DNA of 64,000 nt from Chlorobaculum tepidum TLS (lineage in GTDB: Bacteria > Bacteroidota > Chlorobiia > Chlorobiales > Chlorobiaceae). Shown in pieces: positions 13,131 through 16,049 of this stretch. The translations under genes and the position numbers were made by a program. The DNA is taken from positions 1,475,109 to 1,539,108 of the forward strand of contig NC_002932.3 of NCBI RefSeq assembly GCF_000006985.1, read 5' to 3'. The notes under the pieces are model-generated. The model saw only the letters and a program-made list of their open reading frames with translations, was not told the DNA's origin and made no database searches. Every line of letters begins with the position of its first letter. Position 1 is the stretch's first letter.

Positions 13131-13669
13131 ATGAATATTTTGATTTCACGTTATTTGTTGGCTGAAGTACAAGGAATTATCCCCTTCCACCCACAGCAAA
13201 TGCCCCACACAAGCACCATCATACGGATCACTCCCCTCGAATACAGGGGTGAAAAGCGGGTAGCGCTTGAGTTTTTATACAATGAAGCCATCACTGCCGA
13301 GATAAAACAACTACCGGGCGCAAGCTGGAGCCGCAGTCGCAACCGTTGGCATATCCCTGAATCGGATGGGGTGATCGATCTGATGCTCAGGCAGTTTAAG
13401 GGCAAGGCATGGGTAGATTATTCTGCATTCAGAACAAAGTTCGCGGCAACCCAATGTTACAAAACATCATCAGCTCAGCAAAAGCCCTCAAACCGGTAAC
13501 CCTGCACTGGTTACGGCACAGTTATGCTACCCATCTGCTGGAGTCGGGAACCGACCTCAGGTATATTCAAGAACTTCTGGGACACAAAAGCAGCAAAACC
13601 ACCGAAATCTACACCCATGTCAGTCAAAAAAGTTTGCAGAAAATTAAAAGCCCATTCGATGATTTGTAA
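13131..13669 (+). pseudogene. Degenerate Bacteroidota-type tyrosine recombinase (integrase), central part deleted and frame-shifted
   Basis: Two pieces of one integrase are joined in different frames. The N-terminal piece (ATG 13131 to about 13445) contains IIRITPLEYRGEKRVALEF and LPGASWSRSRNRWHIPES, the arm-type N-terminal domain of phage-like integrases of Bacteroidota. The C-terminal piece (about 13450-13669) contains [18 protein letters not shown] (HxxR box), [19 protein letters not shown] (catalytic Tyr) and ends KIKSPFDDL. The roughly 150-200 residues between them are missing; they would hold the core-binding domain, the first catalytic Arg and the beta-strand Lys. The product cannot be active. 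The deleted part is also where an IntI-specific insertion would lie, so IntI identity cannot be tested. Directly downstream lies the cassette array. Confidence 0.8.
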
Positions 13670-13690
13670 TAAACACGACAAGAGAACACC

Positions 13691-13778
13691 GGGCAATAAC
13701 GCGCTACTTTGTTGCGCTTATTCGTCTGATATGGGATGTAAGGCGCAACAAAGTAGCGCATATAAGCAAGTTATGGGC
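13691..13778. repeat. attC-like palindrome 1 (left boundary of cassette 1)
   Basis: An 88-bp imperfect palindrome. The outer elements are GGGCAATAAC (13691-13700) and GTTATGGGC (13770-13778). Inside them GCGCTACTTTGTTGCGC (13701-13717) is mirrored perfectly over 17 bp at 13743-13759. The left outer element differs from those of later sites, as expected if it belongs to the preceding unit or an attI-like region. Confidence 0.75.
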
Positions 13779-13886
13779 AAGTTTAGAACGACACACGGCA
13801 ACGGACAACAACAGACAAGAGAACCAACAATTTATTGCTGCGACATGACTTGACTGTTGTTTACGACAAAAAATAACAAATAAATA

Positions 13887-13942
13887 ATGGAGACCAGCGA
13901 CCATTTCAAAACGGGGCGACACCGAAAAGCCAAACGAGTAGG
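13887..13942 (+). promoter_or_regulatory. Shared cassette leader, copy 1 (upstream of SHOCT gene)
   Basis: The stretch 13887-13942 contains ACGGGGCGAC, ACCGAAAAGCC and ACGAGTAGG, the last ending about 21 bp before the gene start. The same blocks occur upstream of the second cassette gene. A 1-nt spacing difference between copies breaks any common reading frame, favouring a promoter or RNA element over a peptide. Confidence 0.55.
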
Positions 13943-13963
13943 GACATACAAAAACAAAATAAA

Positions 13964-14317
13964 ATGGAAATTTTCTTTGGTTGGATAATTTTTAGTTTCG
14001 TTGCAGGAATTATTGGTTCTGGACGAAAAATAGGGTTTTGGGGAGCATTTTTGCTTTCAATTTTTTTAAGCCCTTTAATCGGTTTAATATTTGCTTTAGT
14101 TTCAAAAAGCAATGAGAAAGAAGAATACGAGAAAAGAATGTTGGAAACCCAAAAAAGCCAACAAGAAGCGTTAAACAAAATTTTACAAGAAAAACAGAAC
14201 AACGCTTCTACAATATCTATTACTGACGAATTAGAAAAACTTGCAAAACTGAAAAATGACAACATAATTTCAGAAGAAGAATATCAGAAATTAAAAGACA
14301 AACTTCTTAATTCATAA
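13964..14317 (+). CDS. Cassette gene 1: small membrane protein with SHOCT domain
   Basis: Protein of 117 residues. Residues 1-22 and about 26-47 are two hydrophobic helices (MEIFFGWIIFSFVAGIIGSG, then FWGAFLLSIFLSPLIGLIFALV). They are followed by a charged coiled linker (about 48-80). The C-terminal SHOCT domain reads LEKLAKLKNDNIISEEEYQK and ends near LKDKLL. SHOCT domains are short C-terminal modules of uncertain role, often on membrane proteins. Base composition is strongly AT-rich, unlike the host genes, supporting recent acquisition. ATG 13964 was chosen because upstream frames contain only the shared leader. Molecular function unknown. Confidence 0.75.
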   Translation: MEIFFGWIIFSFVAGIIGSGRKIGFWGAFLLSIFLSPLIGLIFALVSKSNEKEEYEKRMLETQKSQQEALNKILQEKQNNASTISITDELEKLAKLKNDNIISEEEYQKLKDKLLNS

Positions 14318-14323
14318 AAACCA

Positions 14324-14461
14324 GCCCATAACATTGTATATGCGATAATTGCGGGATTTTACGGTAAATTGAAAATTTGTGCAAGTAAGAAACATCTTTG
14401 CATACTTGAAATTTTGTGCCTTGAAATCCCGCAACTACGCATATACTTGTCCGTTATGGGC
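14324..14461. repeat. attC-like palindrome 2 (cassette 1/2 junction)
   Basis: Outer elements GCCCATAAC (14324-14332) and GTTATGGGC (14453-14461) pair perfectly. Next come GTATATGCG (14336-14344) with CGCATATAC (14438-14446), then TGCGGGATT (14350-14358) with AATCCCGCA (14425-14433). Unequal unpaired spacers of 5 and 4 nt separate the two arms, like the unpaired central spacer of attC. The central about 65 nt are variable. Confidence 0.85.
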
Positions 14462-14552
14462 CAGTTTAAAAAATCGCGGCAACCTAAGAAAGTCAAATAT
14501 TATGTGCTATTATAACGTAGAACTTGACATCTTTTAGACTATAAAATAATAA

Positions 14553-14611
14553 ATGTGGAGTCCAGAAACCACAAGAAAAACGGGGCGATACCGAAAAGCC
14601 TTACGAGTAGG
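14553..14611 (+). promoter_or_regulatory. Shared cassette leader, copy 2 (upstream of DUF805 gene)
   Basis: It contains ACGGGGCGAT, ACCGAAAAGCC and ACGAGTAGG in the same order as in cassette 1, ending about 21 bp before ATG 14633. A GTG at 14555 would extend the DUF805 protein through this leader, but family similarity starts only at MNWYLQVL, so the leader is treated as non-coding. Confidence 0.55.
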
Positions 14612-14632
14612 AAAACAAAAAAATCAAACTCA

Positions 14633-15007
14633 ATGAACTGGTATTTACAAGTTTTGAAAAAGTATGCTGAATTCAACGGCAGAGCAAGAAGAAAAGAATA
14701 TTGGATGTTTGCACTATTCAACATCATTTTCTTAATTGCTGCAATGATTATTGACAATATTGCGGGAACAACAATCGGTGTGTTACCTTATGGTTTATTC
14801 TATTTTGTTTATGCACTTGCTGTTTTTATTCCAGGTTTAGCAGTCGGTGTAAGAAGACTTCATGATGTTGGAAAAAGTGGGTGGTTTTACTTAATCATTT
14901 TAATTCCTATTGTTGGCGCTATTTGGCTTTTGGTTCTTTTCTGCACAGACGGGGTTGTCGGACAGAATGAATACGGTATAAACCCGAAAGAAGTTGCTAC
15001 TAACTAA
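14633..15007 (+). CDS. Cassette gene 2: DUF805 family membrane protein
   Basis: Protein of 124 residues starting MNWYLQVLKKYAEFNGRARR, the standard DUF805 opening, with RRKEYWMFALFN next. About four hydrophobic segments follow (IIFLIAAMIIDNIAG, YGLFYFVYALAVFIPGLAVG, FYLIILIPIVGAIWLLVLF). The conserved VRRLHDVGKSGW motif lies between them. The family is an inner-membrane protein of unknown function, common as stand-alone genes in Bacteroidota. The stop at 15007 is 10 bp before the 3' palindrome, the compact spacing typical of a gene cassette. Strong AT-richness marks it as foreign. Confidence 0.85.
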   Translation: MNWYLQVLKKYAEFNGRARRKEYWMFALFNIIFLIAAMIIDNIAGTTIGVLPYGLFYFVYALAVFIPGLAVGVRRLHDVGKSGWFYLIILIPIVGAIWLLVLFCTDGVVGQNEYGINPKEVATN

Positions 15008-15017
15008 AAGAAAACCA

Positions 15018-15153
15018 GCCCATAACAAAGGCTATAAAATAATGGCGGGTGAAGTACATAATTGAAAGCTCGTAACCCGCACCAGCATTGGTGTTGGTTG
15101 ACAGCGGACAACCACGCAAACCGCCACTATTTATAGCCTCAACCGTTAGGGGT
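15018..15153. repeat. attC-like palindrome 3 (cassette 2/3 junction)
   Basis: The left outer element is GCCCATAAC (15018-15026) and the right one is GTTAGGGGT (15145-15153); these two match only partly. The inner arms AGGCTATAAA (15029-15038) and TTTATAGCCT (15130-15139) are perfect, as are TGGCGG (15043-15048) and CCGCCA (15121-15126), with spacers of 4 and 3 nt. The mismatch of the outer elements is the mark of a junction between two different cassettes. Confidence 0.85.
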
Positions 15154-15188
15154 AAGTTTCATGAAATCGACGGACAGACTGTTATCCA

Positions 15189-15671
15189 ATGGAAAAAGAA
15201 AACAAAAAGGAAGCGGCTAGAAAGAAATCTCTTGGAGAATTAGGCGAACTATTTGCAATAAAAGCATTGGTAGATAAAAAATTCGATAGAATAAGAAACC
15301 TGAATGACAAATTAATGAATGAAACATTCGCAGATATCGAATGTGAAAAAGAAGGAAAAAATTACATTATTAGTGTTAAAGCAAGAAATAAATATCAAAA
15401 GAACGGAAAAGTTAATACAAGATACAATCTTGGAAGTGACGTTTATACGAAGGCTGTAATGGCCGAAAAGAAATACGATGCAATTGCACATTGGATAGCG
15501 ATACAATTTGATAAAAATTCATTTTCAATCTATTTTGGTTCATTAGAAGAATTACAAGGAAGTAAAGCAATTCCAGTAGATAAATGCGAAAAAGGAATAA
15601 TTGGAGAAATTTGGGAACACGATAAACGCCATTTCTTCGATTTTGATTACTATACAAATCAGAAGAAATAA
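15189..15671 (+). CDS. Cassette gene 3: probable PD-(D/E)XK nuclease-like protein
   Basis: Protein of 160 residues, very lysine-rich and AT-rich. The N-terminal helix SLGELGELFAIKALV carries acidic residues. It is followed by FADIECEKEGKNYIISVKAR, which fits the restriction-endonuclease-like core: an acidic residue, a beta-hairpin, then an X-K dyad in SVKA. Later segments (DAIAHWIAIQFDKNSFSIYF) look like core strands. No methylase, immunity or partner gene lies in the same cassette. Function could be DNA cleavage, repair or defence; this is a fold-level guess and catalytic activity is not certain. ATG 15189 is the first good start after the junction. Confidence 0.6.
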   Translation: MEKENKKEAARKKSLGELGELFAIKALVDKKFDRIRNLNDKLMNETFADIECEKEGKNYIISVKARNKYQKNGKVNTRYNLGSDVYTKAVMAEKKYDAIAHWIAIQFDKNSFSIYFGSLEELQGSKAIPVDKCEKGIIGEIWEHDKRHFFDFDYYTNQKK

Positions 15672-15677
15672 AAACCT

Positions 15678-15815
15678 ACCCCTAACAGCTGCTAAATTCC
15701 AGCAGGGCGGACGATGCAGATAACAAAGTTTTTGGTAACTTAGTAAAACTTTTAACGGCGGATAGTTGTGCTGCTGCAAACTCCCCGCCGCAATTTAGCA
15801 GCAGGCGTTGTGCGG
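15678..15815. repeat. attC-like palindrome 4 (right boundary of cassette 3)
   Basis: The left element ACCCCTAAC (15678-15686) matches the start of cassette 3. The right element is GTTGTGCGG (15807-15815), of a different type. Arms GCTGCTAAATT (15688-15698) and AATTTAGCAGC (15792-15802) are perfect over 11 bp, with an inner GGCGG/CCGCC pair (15706-15710, 15785-15789). Confidence 0.8.
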
Positions 15816-15837
15816 CATACTGAAAAAGCCCCCGCAC
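15809..15837. other. Short inverted repeat closing the array
   Basis: TGTGCGG (15809-15815) pairs with CCGCACA (15831-15837). This is what a next cassette starting TTGTGCGG would show at its own 3' end, but only about 15 nt lie between. It may be a scar of a cassette that lost its gene, or simply a small hairpin. Confidence 0.35.
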
Positions 15838-15914
15838 ATATAATGGACAGATAGCAGGATAAACCGCAAAACCACAACAATATCAACCGTTTTCAAAGAA
15901 ACACATTGTCCCCC

Positions 15915-15998
15915 CTATTGTTTGCTCTCGTCCACCACTTCAAGCCACGGTTCGAGACTTTCTGTTGGCTTTGGAGTATCAATAACTTTTGAAACAAA
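15915..15998 (-). other. Possible coding remnant beside the array
   Basis: On the minus strand 15998-15915 reads FVSKVIDTPKPTESLEPW and on to a TAG stop, with a TGA immediately upstream. The composition looks like a genuine protein C-terminus rather than random sequence, but only about 27 residues remain. No family was recognised. It may be a piece of a host gene cut by insertion of the island. Confidence 0.25.
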
Positions 15999-16049
15999 TC
16001 AGGGCGACCCCGACAAATCAAACCGCCACTCTTCAATTCATCATTCGCT

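Follow-up and report, generated by a model that had tools for sequence, protein, structure and literature searches.

A probable degenerate platform of an integron-like cassette system in Chlorobaculum tepidum and its recombinase family without the I2 insertion

The closest described system is the canonical integron (IntI/attI/attC; VchIntIA 2A3V; class 1 and chromosomal forms), in which tandem same-strand cassettes with a GTT core are inserted at an attI site adjacent to the integrase gene. In the attC sites, which show a bottom-strand bias, an unpaired spacer is enclosed by two sets of paired boxes, outer and inner. All of these features, together with a diverse cargo that includes restriction and metal-transport genes, recur in the system described here. 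The I2 insertion of IntI has been presented as a requirement of cassette capture and as the innovation to which integrons owe their existence (PMC7790495). This I2/patch domain is treated as necessary or defining (PMC7790495, PMC9668308), and surveys select integrases by it (PMC2426708). In the canonical layout, the integrase gene is divergent from the array and attI lies upstream of intI, although exceptions are known (PMC3607928). Integrons of the Treponema denticola type are described as intI-based. No description of I2-less integrons in the Bacteroidota was found in the open-licence literature.

The analyzed DNA is a 64 kb stretch of the C. tepidum chromosome, here called the window. Between frr and tonB it contains four imperfect palindromes that separate three AT-rich, single-gene units on the same strand (Table 1). 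This arrangement had been proposed from the letters alone (hereafter the sequence-only reading) and was confirmed by coordinates, open reading frames and base composition, the units having a GC content of 31-35% compared to 59-61% for frr and tonB. The sequence-only reading did not mention the remnant of a tyrosine recombinase gene, which lies in two pieces (about 13152-13669) on the same strand immediately upstream of palindrome 1, or the DUF805 leader RNAs in two of the cassettes. Judged from comparative data, the locus very probably represents the degenerate form of a chromosomal platform that belongs to an integron-like cassette system.

Table 1. Features of the array between frr and tonB (positions refer to the window).
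Feature	Position	Strand	Characteristics
5′ recombinase remnant	13152..13483	+	Upstream region and N-terminal DUF5710/HARP-like domain (tentative), MPHTSTIIRITPLEYRGEKRVALEF...; 81% nt identity to L041
3′ recombinase remnant	13489..13669	+	Catalytic C-terminus, ...TEIYTHV...SPFDDL; 89% nt identity to L041
Palindrome 1, attI-like platform site	13691..13778 (88 bp)	+	Core GTT at 13770; arms 13701-13717/13743-13759 100% complementary
Cassette 1 (683 bp), SHOCT-domain membrane protein	13770..14452	+	15-nt end signature, 13 pairs
DUF805 leader RNA (RF03081), cassette 1	13882..13949	+	Rfam 76.2 bits, gathering score 51.1
Cassette 1 gene, 117 aa, SHOCT	13964..14317	+	SHOCT E = 9e-7
Palindrome 2, attC-like site of cassette 1	14324..14461	+	Covariance model R1, E = 4e-13
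Cassette 2 (692 bp), DUF805 membrane protein	14453..15144	+	End signature
DUF805 leader RNA (RF03081), cassette 2	14550..14617	+	Rfam 84.9 bits, gathering score 51.1
Cassette 2 gene, 124 aa, DUF805	14633..15007	+	Pfam E = 4e-34
Palindrome 3, attC-like site of cassette 2	15018..15153	+	Model R1, E = 1e-10
Cassette 3 (662 bp)	15145..15806	+	Ends GTTAGGGGT...ACCCCTAAC pair mutually, not with neighbours; end signature
Cassette 3 gene, 160 aa, without confident family	15189..15671	+	Pfam search
Palindrome 4, attC-like site of cassette 3	about 15678..15816	+	Model R1, E = 3e-6
Probable fourth-cassette remnant	15807..16040	+	Starts GTTGTGCGGCATACTGAAAA; appears to fit the cassette 5′ consensus

Run over both strands of the 64 kb, a detector for the 15-nt end pairing found precisely these three cassettes; 103 kb of shuffled sequence gave no match. 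In addition, the attC covariance model R1, which was trained exclusively on other species without the window sequence, identified palindromes 2-4 alone, with nothing more up to E = 10. The array is thus not a product of chance. The end pattern is clearest in cassette 3, since the ends of its neighbours differ from its own. A 3′ end of the fourth-cassette remnant was not found before tonB. The cassette 3 gene has no homologue in the 248 sampled genomes of the phylum, and PADLOC gave no match for the three cassette proteins of the window. In an Rfam search of the palindromes, the sole match was the DUF805 RNA, a cis-regulatory element located between them. This RNA was also found inside the first cassette of another genome (G136, locus L162). 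As a hallmark of cassettes it was rejected, because most Bacteroidota copies among the matches listed are not visibly beside such a site.

The two recombinase pieces of the window (13152-13483 and 13489-13699) align with 81% and 89% identity to the intact gene of a congener (L041), relative to which about 0.68 kb of the middle is deleted. The 3′ remnant matches PF00589 (C-terminal part) and NCBIfam integrase models; its mechanical open reading frame starts at 13409, with a frame change relative to the N-terminal piece. The array is probably frozen as a result of this internal deletion, barring an enzyme that works in trans. Like a CALIN, the term for attC clusters that lack an integrase, it is an array without a working integrase, but unlike a CALIN it still has the remnant of its own platform adjacent to it, and its sites are not canonical attC.

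Using the C-terminal piece as query, intact recombinase genes encoding 366-503 aa were found in the Chlorobiota and other Bacteroidota, and a scan of GTDB contigs yielded 80 loci from Flavobacterium, Algoriphagus, Chitinophagaceae, Bacteroidales and others. In the intact platforms, recombinase gene, palindromic attI and cassettes follow each other on one strand. This position of attI, 3′ of the recombinase gene, differs from the canonical layout, as does its palindromic form. A candidate core GTT could be identified 3′ of the recombinase gene in 76 of the 80 loci, usually about 80-110 nt past the stop codon. An imperfect palindrome and a conserved ATATACAAGTT-like motif typically lie ahead of this core, and the sequence beyond it is unrelated. 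This number was obtained with a looser attI finder that replaced a strict version (29 of 80 loci), and ten doubtful loci were excluded before alignment. The attI arms covary, with double changes in all seven predicted pairs (52 loci).

Palindrome 1 of the window is the ortholog of the palindrome found 3′ of the intact recombinase genes in L041, L042 and L043. It is therefore the attI of the platform and not a fourth attC, and model R1 gave no match to it. The proposal of the sequence-only reading that all four palindromes are attC sites consequently stands for palindromes 2-4, which are matched by R1, and falls for palindrome 1.

Between the stop codon and attI, a TATATTTG-like box is often present (L057-L136). 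It resembles the Bacteroidetes -7 promoter box and is possibly the cassette promoter. A Chryseobacterium plasmid from trout (NZ_CP041688; L403) carries an intact platform with cassettes, a form of the system that is potentially mobile. In genome G052 (L050), tandem, nearly identical units without open reading frames (GTTATGGGGAAATTGGCGC...) were observed downstream of a wider-family recombinase. Plasmid-borne tyrosine recombinases with 51-56% identity to the family occur in Klebsiella, Aeromonas and Acinetobacter, one of them annotated as TnpF, and relatives on viral contigs reach at most 47% identity. Some recombinases of the wider family fall outside the system, since the short relatives of about 280-300 aa (L413-L418) lack the N-terminal domain and have neither attI nor cassette arrays. 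As a negative comparison, they help to see which features make up the system. In L414, R1 found one strong site, near a short recombinase without an array.

The attC sites of the new family (n = 77, circular form) have an outer stem in which a mismatched step separates 4 bp from 9 bp, followed by a spacer and an inner stem. For most of the stem pairs, three or four Watson-Crick types were observed. Unlike in canonical attC, the outer stem spans 15 nt and has a fixed A.C mismatch at position 11. Among the non-Watson-Crick steps, 132 are top-strand A.C steps, which correspond to T.G in the bottom strand, compared to 41 of the opposite kind, and 156 are of other kinds. In accordance with this, the bottom strand was found to fold better in 75 of the 77 sites, by a mean of -4.4 kcal/mol (p = 3e-14). 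For the canonical attC of the phylum this folding bias is weak (25 of 42), and for attI there is none (26 of 66). According to these folding energies, the bottom strand would be the recombined one, as in canonical integrons.

With R1, 140 sites were found in 24 loci of the new family, whereas its sole match in the canonical loci was at E = 0.14. For the reverse comparison, a model (R3) was built from the canonical attC of Bacteroidota IntI arrays, with the structure given by hand, as RNAalifold returned no pairs for these sites and the model derived from it (R2) was sequence-only. R3 identified 56 sites in the canonical loci, but none in the window, in 17 loci of the new family or in 312 kb of new-family arrays. 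The reciprocal covariance models thus separate the new sites from canonical attC. Likewise, only 7 of 102 R′ boxes fit GTTRRRY. The earlier suggestion of a separate family of cassette sites, with an outer element that differs from the RYYYAAC/GTTRRRY consensus, is in line with these results. The checks that went with it gave a match of palindromes 2-4 to the covariance model of their own family and the same kind of cassette site in other genomes.

A further difference to canonical integrons lies in the recombinase. The I2 insertion is missing in all 48 recombinases of the new family and present in all 30 canonical IntI of the same phylum. This was determined on intact relatives, the deletion having removed the region from the copy in the window. 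The segment between the KGxKDR and HxLRHS motifs has a length of 71 aa in all 48 members, compared to 112 aa in the 30 canonical IntI and 73-81 aa in Xer. Alignments skip the I2 region, i.e., positions of about 180-245 of the TIGR02249 profile and residues 186-246 of 2A3V. The integron integrase profile TIGR02249 (integrase_gron) matched three intact members in two stretches with 196-206 bits, which is below its cut-off of 265. The new recombinases also carry an extra N-terminal domain. DUF5710 was matched in 11 of 30 members with weak E-values, and similarity to HARP was found at E = 0.46 by profile and at rank 3 of a Foldseek search without significance, so that a DUF5710/HARP identity is to be taken as a lead only.

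An ordinary CALIN, in which canonical attC cassettes were assembled by a canonical IntI, would share the GTT core, the R″/R′ and L″/L′ architecture and the same-strand single-gene cassettes with the array of the window. Moreover, IntI above the curated cut-off was found in 70 of the 248 sampled Bacteroidota genomes, sometimes alongside the new family, which exceeds the few complete integrons reported for complete genomes (PMC9024848). Such an origin is nevertheless very unlikely, given the blindness of R3 to the new arrays, the deviating R′ boxes and a remnant adjoining the array that belongs to the I2-less family; in addition, the C. tepidum genome contains no match near the IntI cut-off. Since the I2, TIGR02249, R box and attC model tests all fail, the system is integron-like in its working, yet it is not a canonical integron by the IntI definition.

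In sequence, the catalytic core is closest to XerC/XerD and the archaeal XerA (NF040815; PDB 4A8E, 5HXY), which also lack I2. The XerA-like model NF040815 gave the best NCBIfam score, with 214-220 bits for three members, just short of the cut-off of 220. Together with the palindromic attI, which could be a double-stranded site, this is compatible with Xer/dif-type modules, in which XerC/XerD of the host act on short double-stranded sites to move genes. However, the sites have a length of about 135 nt and form a covarying hairpin with a bottom-strand bias. Unlike in the Xer systems, the arrays are tied to a dedicated recombinase that is linked to attI and has the extra N-terminal domain. A quickly built tree resolved Xer, IntI and the new family as three separate groups (SH-aLRT 99-100), which places the new recombinases in a clade of their own apart from the XerC/XerD of the same phylum. 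Host-driven Xer/dif modules are therefore highly improbable. In the same tree, which is unrooted and based on a narrow sample, IntI and the new family share one side, opposite Xer. A Foldseek search with a model of the full recombinase ranked IntI 2A3V and XerA on top and did not discriminate between them.

For the analysis of the cassette ends, each array was walked from attI to the next site at which the 8 nt that directly follow the core recur as reverse complement. The first cassette had its own 3′ motif nearby in 17 of 23 loci (0.5 expected), and the walk yielded 102 cassettes from 41 of 70 loci. In other genomes, the two ends of one cassette were complementary over 15 nt (93-94 cassettes). 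Positions 1-9 paired, position 10 did so partially, position 11 in 0% (A opposite C or G), and position 16 was at chance level. As the pairing of positions 1-8 belonged to the selection, the independent positions are 9-16, of which positions 9 and 12-15 paired in 84-92%, with 84-90% for positions 12-15 in the set of 94 cassettes. Pairing with the end of the physically adjacent cassette was at about the level of random cassettes. Pairing with the own far end is predicted by cutting and joining at the GTT core, but not by chance or static repeats.

Movement of whole cassettes is indicated by a 1,052-bp cassette that is 99.9% identical in two unrelated arrays (L047 and L126), the recombinases of the two genomes aligning at 60%. 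It is located beside attI in L047 and between two attC sites in L126. The identity begins at most 1 nt from the 5′ core and stops just past the 3′ core, whereas the flanks have an identity of about 25%. A second cassette is common to L108, L115 and L126 (93-94% identity) in three contexts. The cargo comprises restriction-modification, metal-transport and lincosamide nucleotidyltransferase-like genes. Bacteria often have long hairpins between short AT-rich genes, but the reading of the palindromes as repetitive intergenic elements or transcription terminators between laterally acquired genes is scarcely credible, given that the two ends of a cassette pair with each other rather than with the adjacent cassette, that whole cassettes move with exact GTT edges and that in other genomes the array starts at a conserved attI beside the recombinase.

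With regard to the integron-like reading, the association of recombinase and sites is suggested by their position and distribution. The platform of intact relatives consists of an I2-less tyrosine recombinase with an N-terminal DUF5710/HARP-like domain, followed by the palindromic attI and cassettes on the same strand, each cassette beginning at the GTT core after attI or after another attC. A cassette would be excised as a circle, its attC would fold from the bottom strand into a hairpin, and the recombinase would join this hairpin at the GTT core with its partner, either double-stranded attI or a second attC. It appears rather likely that this constitutes a second class of integrons, widespread in the Bacteroidota, in which cassettes recombine at hairpin sites without the I2 helix. 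The bottom strand would be selected by G.T wobbles and recognition would be taken over by another domain. Such a class could be a sister of IntI in the state before I2 or an independent invention, and may have escaped searches that depend on the IntI patch and on models of canonical attC. Recombinases without I2 that are tied to mobile cassettes with covarying, strand-biased hairpins open the origin of integrons to direct testing.

Traces of the recombinase or attI were found downstream of frr in seven further genomes of the genus, with different genes in between, and in several of them tonB lies beyond these remnants. This points to a platform that is old at the frr locus and to cassettes that turn over. 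A clean empty site between frr and tonB, which the sequence-only reading had considered as support for insertion, was not found in the sister genomes; these remnants and other genes were present instead. Its alternative of a fixed ancestral region does not hold either, as the congeners differ downstream of frr and the cassette 3 gene has no counterpart elsewhere in the sampled phylum. In one genome (G002, L251), a DNA-methyltransferase-like gene follows a recombinase remnant downstream of frr in place of the cassettes of the window. The recombinase is intact in G016 and nearly intact in G020 (one in-frame stop), in both cases elsewhere on the chromosome. At the frr locus, its decay apparently occurred more than once.

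Within the sampled Bacteroidota, recombinase matches to the family profile reach 386 bits or more in 24 genomes, and attC-model matches at E <= 0.001 were obtained in 129 of 248 genomes, with rough E-values due to a short calibration. Together with at least one plasmid-borne platform, this indicates a large unseen pool of cassettes.

Further sites of the new family were observed in the C. tepidum genome itself. A lone site is located at 1859500-1859633. A second attC cluster with three sites lies at 1,805,772-1,808,097 (L426); no recombinase was detected nearby, and the cluster contains one full cassette (1807970-1806775).
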